A DNA stretch of 64,000 bases from Leisingera aquimarina DSM 24565 (GTDB taxonomy: Bacteria; Pseudomonadota; Alphaproteobacteria; Rhodobacterales; Rhodobacteraceae), in NCBI RefSeq assembly GCF_000473165.1, contig NZ_KI421504.1, positions 3,262,094-3,326,093 of the forward strand, given 5' to 3'. The notes under the pieces were generated by a model, which did no database searches, was not told where the DNA came from, and worked only from the letters and a program-made list of their open reading frames with translations. Below, in pieces: positions 20,046 to 21,982 of the stretch. Made by a program: the position numbers and the translations under genes. Within the stretch, counting starts at the first letter, position 1. Each line of letters starts with the position of its first letter.

Positions 20046-20522
20046 CCTCAGGATTTGCCGCCGGCCGCTGCCGGCCACTGAGGCATTACGTCCGTCCGTG
20101 CCGCAGGATAGCTCTAGATGGCGAACACAACCGCTCGGGTCTGCCGCATGCCTGTTGCGCCTCTTTGTGTCACTGCCGGCGAACCGCCCCGGGTTTGCCG
20201 GAGGCTGATTTCAGTTAGTTGCGCGGCAATGTCCTCAGTTTCCAGGGCGGCGTAGAAATTGGCCTCTGCTTCTGCCGGCGGAATGTTCCCGATAGGCTCG
20301 AGCAGGCGGCGGCTGTTGAACCAGTCCACCCATTCGAGTGTTGCGTATTCCGCTGCCTCGAAGTTGCGCCAAGGGCCGCGGCGGTGAACGGCCTCGGCCT
20401 TGAACAAGCCGTTGATCGTCTCGGCCAAGGCATTGTCGTAACTGTCTCCGGCGCTGCCGGCAGAGGGCTCGATACCAGCTTCTCCCAACCGCTCTGTGTA
20501 TTTGATCGACAGGTATTGGCTG

Positions 20523-20566
20523 ACCCACTGCGTGACAGGCGATGCGAGCATCGCCGAGAACGGCGG
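20523..20566 (+). repeat. Hairpin insert, type 1, copy 1
   Basis: Left flank ACCCACTGCGTGACA, then stem GGCGATGC-GA-GCATCGCC (20538-20555, perfect 8-bp arms), then right flank CGAGAACGGCGG. It interrupts orfB between the codons for LVHHS and QYLSI. Confidence 0.75.
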
Positions 20567-20670
20567 CCGGAGTGGTGAACAAGCCCCATCGCCTTTGCCG
20601 GCCGCCGCTCGTGAACAGCCTGCTCCAGAGCATCGAGAACGAACCCGGCATGCGCCGGGGTGCTGACACG

Positions 20671-20720
20671 ACCCATTGACCGGCAGGCGATTTGGCCATG
20701 CCAAATCTGCCGAGAGGGGG
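20671..20720 (+). repeat. Hairpin insert, type 1, copy 2
   Basis: Left flank ACCCATTGACCGGCAG, stem GATTTGGC-CAT-GCCAAATC (20689-20707), right flank TGCCGAGAGGGGG. It shares both flanks with the copies at 20523 and 20895, but the stem sequence is entirely different. Confidence 0.75.
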
Positions 20721-20753
20721 CCGGCGATCTTGCGGGCATAGGCATCAATGAGC

Positions 20754-20797
20754 GAGCCATTGAAGGCGCCATTGGTTCGAGCCCAATGGCGAGCGGC
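20754..20797 (+). repeat. Hairpin insert, type 2, copy 1
   Basis: GAGCCATTGAAGGC followed by stem GCCATTGG-TTCGAGC-CCAATGGC (20768-20790) and GAGCGGC. It is inserted in frame in orfB before IDAYARK. It is nearly identical to the reverse-oriented copy at 21608. Confidence 0.75.
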
Positions 20798-20894
20798 GGC
20801 ATCGGCGAACCCTTTCCAGGTGGCGGCATAGGTGAAACCGCTGACCCAGAGCATGTTGGGCGCGGGCACACGGAATTGCCGGTTTGCTTTGTCC

Positions 20895-20938
20895 ATCCAC
20901 TGCCCGGCAGCACATGCGCAGCATGTGCGAGAGGGGGC
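20895..20938 (+). repeat. Hairpin insert, type 1, copy 3
   Basis: Left flank ATCCACTGCCCGGCAG, stem GCACATGC-GCA-GCATGTGC (20910-20928), right flank CGAGAGGGGGC. It interrupts orfB between APCP and NRQFRVP. Confidence 0.75.
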
Positions 20939-20988
20939 ATGGGGCCTTCTTGCCAGGCATCGTGGTTTTGTGAGGCTTGCCCCGGAGC

Positions 20989-21030
20989 GAGCCTTTGTCC
21001 GCCATTGGTCCGAGGACAATGGCGAGCGCC
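20989..21030 (+). repeat. Hairpin insert, type 2, copy 2
   Basis: GAGCCTTTGTCC followed by GCCATTGGTCC-GA-GGACAATGGC (one base unpaired in the right arm) and GAGCGCC. It interrupts orfB after MGIQG. Confidence 0.72.
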
Positions 21031-21265
21031 TTGAATACCCATGCCCTTCATCAGCCGAGCAACCGTGCAGCGGGCGGCGTCAAAGCCTTCCCGCTGCAAT
21101 TGCCGCCAGACCTTCCGCACGCCATAGACCCGCCAGTTCTCTTCGAAAACCCGCCGGATCTCGGGCCGCAATGCCGCGTCACGCCGGGCACGCTCCGACA
21201 ACCGGGCCGGACCGGCCCGCTTCGCCAGGTGCTCATAATACGTGGAAGGGGCAATCGGCAGGAAT

Positions 21266-21307
21266 GAGACATGCCGCGCCATTGGTCCGAGCGGCAATGG
21301 CGAATGC
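21266..21307 (+). repeat. Hairpin insert, type 2, copy 3
   Basis: GAGACATGCCGC followed by GCCATTG-GTCCGAGCGG-CAATGGC (21278-21301) and GAATGC. It interrupts orfB between GGEPIC and LPIAPSTYY. Confidence 0.72.
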
Positions 21308-21358
21308 AGATCGGCTCGCCCCCATGCTCCGCGCGATGCATGCCGGTAAATGACACCA

Positions 21359-21720
21359 TCACTTCGACCGGCGGCCGAGCGCCGCCATCGCAAAATACGC
21401 GGAGGCTTTGCGGAGGATCTCGTTCGCCTGGCGCTGCTCGCGGTTTTCCCGCTCCAGCGCCTTCATCTTGCCGGCTGCATCTGTTGGCACGCCCGCCCGC
21501 TTGCCGCTGTCGGCTTCTGCCTTCTTAACCCACTCATTCAGCGTATGCGCCGAACAGCCGGTCTTTGCGGAGATCGACATGATCGCCTGCCAACGGGAAC
21601 CGTGCTGGCCGTTCGCCATTGGGCGCGAACCAATGGCGCCTCAATGGCTCACTTGTCCAGCACCAGCCGCACCGCACGCTCGCGGACCTCAGGAGAATAC
21701 TTGTTTGTTGTCTTGCTCAT
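21359..21720 (-). pseudogene. IS3 transposase OrfA (helix-turn-helix), disrupted
   Basis: Starting at the ATG at 21720 the frame reads [23 protein letters not shown] and then meets a TGA inside a hairpin insert (21608-21651). After the insert it continues as [40 protein letters not shown] and the leucine-zipper-like [18 protein letters not shown] to the usual orfA/orfB overlap. Apart from the insert it is a normal IS3 OrfA. Confidence 0.85.
21608..21651 (-). repeat. Hairpin insert, type 2, copy 4 (inverted)
   Basis: Read on the minus strand: GAGCCATTGAGGC, stem GCCATTGG-TTCGCGC-CCAATGGC (21637-21615), GAACGGC. It places a TGA stop inside orfA. This is the only copy in the opposite orientation to the other six. 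Confidence 0.75.
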
Positions 21721-21982
21721 TGTGGCTTCATCCTAATCAGGAGGTGAAGCCTCCGGAAAACCCGGGGCGGTTCACTTCGAAACCCGCACGGCTGAAACAG
21801 CACCGGATCCTGAAACCTAATCGCATAAAAGCGCCGCCATGCCCCCCGGCCTGCGCAACGGCATTCAGCTGCGGTGCTGCAGCATGGGTCAGAAACGACT
21901 GTAATACCCGTCGTTTTCTGCAGCGAATCTACCGGCAGACGGCGGCACATTGGACAGACCTGTGCAGCGACGGAGGCCACGC

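Follow-up and report, generated by a model that had tools for sequence, protein, structure and literature searches.

Short, structured palindromes with a mobile appearance in transposase genes of Leisingera aquimarina and in other Rhodobacteraceae

Group II introns, which also occur in IS elements, are often hosted and carried by mobile elements. Among much smaller sequences, the RPEs and the CGTC-tagged REPs are small palindromes, prominent in alphaproteobacteria, that are found inside unrelated genes as well as between genes and have no dedicated transposase, features which, as far as the consulted parts of the two sources go (PMC3733652, PMC10969869), they share with the elements described here. 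The CGTC REPs are characterized in the consulted part of PMC3733652 by a CGTC terminal motif and stems of 8-9 bp starting with AT residues, and the same part mentions few associations with transposase genes, regarded as fortuitous. In the literature surveyed, mainly open-access titles and the beginnings of abstracts, no description of the elements presented below was found.

The window, a stretch of 64,000 nucleotides of the L. aquimarina DSM 24565 genome, contains an IS3-family element in which a sequence-only reading had recognized seven short palindromic inserts of two related types. All seven are present where they had been placed, three of type A and four of type B, according to both covariance models and alignment with relatives. 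The assignment to IS3 follows from the rve-type orfB, the orfA/orfB frameshift signal (ALIL), the terminal inverted repeats and the alignment to plasmid copies annotated as IS3, and the features are as follows:

20181-21774, minus strand: IS3-family element with orfA/orfB on the minus strand and seven inserts (26-nt terminal inverted repeats; alignment to plasmid IS3 copies)
20181-20206, plus strand: terminal inverted repeat of the IS, the pair being 96% complementary
21748-21773, minus strand: terminal inverted repeat, partner of 20181-20206
20522-20563, plus strand: insert A1, type A palindromic element (alignment and covariance model; same site in congener G017 and in other copies of this genome)
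20670-20721, plus strand: insert A2, type A palindromic element (alignment and covariance model; identical in congener G020)
20751-20796, plus strand: insert B1, type B, with the constant loop GCCATTGGTYCGA (alignment and covariance model)
20894-20938, plus strand: insert A3, type A palindromic element (alignment and covariance model; identical in G020)
20986-21029, plus strand: insert B2, type B (alignment and covariance model; G006 and G020 have an identical element at this IS site)
21263-21307, plus strand: insert B3, type B, overlapping the predicted ALIL pseudoknot at its 3' end (alignment, covariance model and Rfam)
21283-21401, minus strand: ALIL pseudoknot, the IS3 frameshift stimulator (Rfam RF01497, 65.6 bits, E 4.6e-16)
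21609-21653, minus strand: insert B4, type B in the opposite orientation (alignment and covariance model)

The ALIL motif was the sole match of an Rfam scan of positions 20100-21850 at E up to 1. With covariance models A and B, among whose training sequences are the window inserts themselves, the seven inserts scored E 3.4e-21 to 1.4e-9 in the 64-kb window, and all remaining matches there had E 0.013 or worse. The earlier statement that the window holds no other copies is correct, but it does not extend beyond the window, as a BLAST search with the IS region lists 86 matches in this genome, the region itself included. The alignment with IS relatives that had been proposed as a check comprised four plasmid IS3 copies (from Cereibacter, P. 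aminovorans, Roseivivax and P. pantotrophus), a further copy from this genome and those of ten congeners. Compared with the relatives, the window copy carries net inserts of 38, 38, 37, 37, 39, 46 and 38 nt and, over 1332 reference columns, neither a deletion nor any other indel. All seven inserts are missing from the four plasmid copies, and varying subsets of them are missing from the congeners. The Roseivivax and P. pantotrophus plasmid copies hold one B element each at another position, and the P. aminovorans copy has a 20-nt insertion of a different kind and a 1-nt gap. Near-identical insert units were found again elsewhere in the genome and the genus, which excludes a chance origin.

Constant flanks around variable stems, as read originally from the window alone, are supported. 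Type B (16 sequences) has a constant 13-nt loop and arms around CATTG/CAATG, with two-sided, compensated changes at 6 of the 14 predicted pairs; its terminal dinucleotides pair completely in 47 of the 119 distinct strings, which come partly from related loci, compared with 9.0 ± 2.7 when the ends are shuffled. In type A (13 sequences), constant CRYTGCCCGGCAG and GAGAGGG enclose a palindrome nearly free in sequence, with two-sided changes at 7 of 8 predicted pairs, 44 distinct hairpins in 56 distinct strings, and pairing at 180 of the 264 outer positions, compared with 101.9 ± 7.6 when the arms are shuffled. Types A and B are two families of short palindromes with compensated pairing. Stop codons in the six frames number 45 in type A against 105.9 ± 8.5 in shuffles, and 67 in type B against 310.0 ± 14.6, contrasts which related strings inflate in both cases. 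The two-type picture has to be extended by a third type, C, present in congeners at two sites of the IS3, with an apex near TCCGGGGGA and variable stems: it occupies site 1070 in G004, G017, G018, G019 and G020, and site 273 in G017, G018 and G019, and hairpins similar to it interrupt loci L115 and L128. The type C inserts of 53 and 56 nt (L012, L013, L014, L017; sites 273 and 1070) run into a stop in the upstream frame; according to our reading of the alignment, a -1 slip on GGGGG would open them, and G020 (L010) has a 57-nt version that keeps the frame.

The genome-wide search that had also been suggested brought many further family members, with stems that vary while the flanks stay constant. 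At E <= 0.01, the covariance models gave at least 40 B and at least 88 A matches in this genome, the weakest of the 128 listed being doubtful; 150 candidates were scored per search (for type A, out of 7950 first-look candidates), so strong copies may have been missed. Sampling 66 of the 128 listed matches in 37 fetched loci gave 41 distinct sites (28 A and 13 B, with two B sites of the window IS merged by the clustering), of which 39 are located in or beside transposase or integrase genes (27/28 A and 12/13 B). Host genes were called from Pfam matches, from BLAST hits with annotation or from shared repeat membership, and for L120 the call rests on an rve match below the cut-off. The exceptions are a type A copy between rmlB and rmlD (L116) and a weak B match of 23.2 bits that is possibly false (L119). 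The hosts include IS3, IS5, IS66, IS91, IS481 and Mutator-type genes and a tyrosine integrase, together with Pfam matches that we take to represent IS21, IS256 and IS1182. Repeated targeting of one IS, as supposed before, is too narrow a description, since many unrelated IS families carry the inserts. Several host repeats are multicopy and carry the inserts along, with aligned pieces 96.5-99.7% alike, and one IS element of this genome has its closest relatives on Leisingera plasmids.

The type A copy between rmlB and rmlD, whose orientation to the upstream gene is the same as that of most IS copies, is part of a genus-wide intergenic repeat that consists of the hairpin and, after it, a conserved GGGAGTATTTGGGAAAAGATGAA-like tail (17 printed copies). 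Within this repeat the palindrome is mostly GGCGGC/GCCGCC, while it varies in the IS copies; with up to three mismatches, the repeat is found at four places in this genome. The notion that type A occurs in IS elements only is weakened by this repeat, and also by the training of model R2 mostly on IS copies and by the limited number of candidates scored. Copies of the repeat, in which the tail reads GTATTTGGG..AGATGAA and which is terminator-like in appearance, lie at L374-L389, L364 and L116:1955-2045, and a related tail lacking the type A hairpin lies at window position 14381 (minus strand).

In wider searches, 84 of the 149 family genomes contained type B at E <= 0.001, and a draw of 289 genomes across the class gave 3 with type B at E <= 1e-6, each of them a family member. 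Type A appeared in 4 of the 289, two of them outside the family, one with 10% contamination; 21-42 candidates were scored per genome in these searches. In a sample biased towards high scores, 20 loci of other genomes (19 B and one A) were examined with one ORF each, and 18 matched transposase families, as did L149 with a different ORF. A pattern scan of named genomes gave at least 119 stretches, of which 80 were fetched; 37 of these have an ORF resembling the transposase or integrase queries no more than 500 nt away, 26 of them being inside that ORF or at its edge, and Pfam adds L255 and L259. Judging from the listing, many of the remaining stretches sit in probable intergenic positions, frequently right behind the end of a gene. 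Type B also resides inside Pfam-supported frames of a terminase (L200), a Mu-like capsid protein (L194) and a flavoprotein (L275). A restriction of type B to IS elements fits 12 of the 13 distinct fetched sites here and fails in the family, where intergenic and non-IS copies exist. In addition, type B occupies the same position in GTA tail (TIM-barrel) genes on two contigs (L198, L207), and an exact type B pattern was noticed in a record of Enemella evansiae (L223), far from the usual hosts. Overall, the palindromes are real, structured, mobile-looking and widespread in one family, the Rhodobacteraceae.

Several relatives retain readable empty sites. An ISPpa4 relative (IS5) reads TGGTC|GACAG where copies L111-L113 hold 40-41 nt, a second ISPpa4-like IS5 site shows a pure insertion of 39 nt, and the IS3 sites 397 and 910 read ATC|GAC and ATC|GAG in relatives, as judged from the alignment. 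Type A is thus a pure, base-precise insertion at clean empty sites, and no target duplication was seen at those of the IS5 and IS3 relatives. C precedes the element in 44 of 50 flank sets and G follows it in 42 of 50, both bases being partly element sequence. As read from the alignments, each of the four B inserts in the window IS replaces four bases, and for the B elements of P. pantotrophus and Roseivivax an exchange of 5 nt fits better than one of 4 nt. Flanks of distinct sites are unrelated to each other. Guidance of target choice by the arms was considered and rejected, since the variable arms have no similarity to the flanks: the mean longest common string is 5.41, compared with 5.44 for re-paired sets (29 candidate sites, some spurious).

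Regarding orientation, type B is sense at 8 of 12 sites in this genome and type A antisense at 16 of 21 (p 0.027), with gene strands entered by hand from earlier results. In the pattern scan, type B is sense at 19 of 25 distinct transposase sites (loci L186-L292, p 0.015), and 40 of 52 are sense when all A and B matches are counted. Neither family keeps a fixed orientation to the host gene; both orientations occur, with a bias. A strict RNA element is unlikely because both orientations occur, and simple tolerance of random insertions does not predict the bias.

The inserts have multiplied together with their IS. G020 contains four IS copies of 1615 bp that each carry seven inserts; three are identical and the fourth has 3 differences. 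They lie at four places, of which two have one flank in common, and no target duplications of these copies were recognized by eye in 12-nt flanks. In this genome, inserts are common to partial and full IS copies. The inserts also recombine with each other: in L002 the B1 site holds a B2 core, in L003, L004 and L005 a B1 left side is joined to a B2 right side, and in L007 a B1/B2 left side is joined to a B3 right side. Over the 1332 columns, the window copy (W), G020, G006 and G018 have no indel other than inserts, and G019 and G004 lack the last column only, so that, apart from a last column, 6 of the 12 aligned genus copies show no further gap. All six full-length copies have at least one insert. 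Deleted or truncated are the copies of G017, G008, G012, G014 and G011 and the second copy of this genome, that of G008 being insert-free, with a 91-column gap and a TAG. Among five non-window copies dN/dS is 0.03-0.21 (G004-G018, 0.007/0.259; G020-G018, 0.014/0.301), and against the window copy 0.15-0.27. Several insert-laden IS copies hence show purifying selection, and insert-laden copies multiply. The window copy has a TGA at the border of insert B4 and Gly at two positions that are Asp in relatives and that are presumably catalytic. In the HHSDRG motif, one and the same codon reads Gly in place of Asp in the window copy, G004 and G017 and in none of the other printed copies.

As for the age of the inserts, the four equal-length A/B inserts shared by W and G020 have 0 differences in 159 positions and their flanks 49 in 555 (p 3.6e-6), which makes these inserts young, converted or constrained, and not simply old and neutral. 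Other pairs were weaker or not significant, and site 397 of G020-G018 shows the opposite trend (inserts 9/38, flanks 21/222). Many A and B inserts look young or homogenized. In type C, shared inserts and their flanks have diverged to about the same extent, so a single history for all types is not required, and type C may be old.

We consider it probable that the inserts represent very small non-autonomous mobile palindromes, belonging to at least two families of the Rhodobacteraceae, which resemble REPs and RPEs and hitch-hike on IS elements. The palindromes would move by themselves, perhaps as single-strand hairpins, through the action of an enzyme, and would insert precisely, leaving the target unduplicated: type A would enter next to a pyrimidine, with G on the other side, and at the cleanest sites within TC^GA, and type B, at readable sites, would replace about 4 nt. 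Hairpin pairing is kept while the stems change. Transposase genes could tolerate the inserts because single IS copies are dispensable, and the IS, by trans-mobilization or residual activity, would carry them to new sites and hosts; the inserts also recombine among themselves. A Y1/RAYT protein was rejected as the mobilizer, given the lack of correlation with type B: Y1 proteins (PF01797) occur in 11 of the 84 family genomes that have B and in 5 of the 65 that lack it, or 16 of 149 in total. The initial suggestion of a small palindromic mobile-type element, with habits like those of the Rickettsia/Wolbachia palindromic elements, gains support, including from type B copies inside Pfam-supported frames of four kinds of protein genes.

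Other origins have to be weighed against mobile palindromes. That the segments are ancient, normal parts of the IS could be read from inserts common to other copies in this genome, but the existence of empty sites, in plasmid relatives for all seven and in congeners for different subsets, refutes this explanation, and similar units reside in other IS families; practically no weight is left to it. Local template switching or gene conversion from the intergenic terminator-like repeat, with no transposition involved, would agree with the type A hairpin embedded in that repeat and with the conversion seen from insert to insert, yet it sits poorly with unrelated flanks, arms dissimilar to them and base-precise insertion at clean sites, and we find it unlikely. 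Silencing of transposon genes by a host system that puts hairpins into them could account for the position of 39 of the 41 distinct sites fetched, which are in or next to genes of many kinds of mobile elements, and for up to seven inserts per IS. Such a dedicated anti-transposon mechanism, raised in the sequence-only reading as a way of inactivating transposons, is not supported, as type B also occurs between genes and in GTA, phage and metabolic frames, the type A hairpin belongs to an intergenic repeat, and the insert-bearing IS copies have multiplied; we judge it very improbable.

It is also conceivable, at low odds, that the inserts behave as mini-introns or recoded segments, the hairpins being either cut out of the mRNA or skipped or recoded during translation, which would leave a transposase with seven inserts functional. 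The lack of indels other than inserts in W, G020, G006 and G018 (and, but for the last column, in G019 and G004), the low dN/dS between the five non-window copies, the four seven-insert copies in G020 and the presence of an insert in every full-length genus copy aligned would all agree with this, as would the strand bias, which slightly lowered our confidence in mobile palindromes and slightly raised that in functional removal or recoding. The two type C inserts that open after a -1 slip and the in-frame 57-nt version point in the same direction, and the possible old age of type C keeps the recoding idea alive. On the other hand, both A and B occur in both orientations, the window copy reads Gly at two Asp positions of the relatives although its lineage is multicopy, other aligned copies are damaged (with that of G008 insert-free), insert-bearing IS5 copies carry a 1-nt deletion and a 13-nt duplication, and the low dN/dS may predate the inserts. 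If true, this explanation would make the hairpins tiny elements of bacteria, resembling introns or bypass segments, that reside in transposase genes.

Under the preferred explanation, these tiny palindromes, which belong to a large bacterial family of mainly marine habitat, reside in this genome chiefly in other mobile elements. They explain the broken look of some IS transposases and raise the question of how such copies keep multiplying. Natural pairs of empty and filled sites, many distinct sites and a strong structure signal make the movement of REP/RPE-like hairpins testable.

In comparison with known systems, the palindromes work like REPs and RPEs, and by the tested features they are members of neither the GTAG nor the CGTC family. 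RPEs, quoted at about 150 bp in the part of the literature seen, are longer than the elements described here (about 36-57 nt). Compared with the CGTC elements, the aligned A and B members have no CGTC tag and differ in their stems and loops, single members (P. pantotrophus) do hold CGTC, and the elements are massed in transposase genes. Group II introns are far larger, while the palindromes occur on both strands, with a bias, and show no sign of splicing. MITEs are likewise short, non-autonomous and multicopy, but the clean empty sites found here lack a target duplication. GTAG REPs and REPINs with their RAYT (TnpA-REP) are also short hairpins with constant and compensated parts, partly located between genes; they differ by the GTAG tag, absent from the aligned A and B members, by the Y1 transposases, missing from most carriers here, and by an extragenic location, whereas the palindromes of this genome lie mostly inside genes and those elsewhere partly between them.
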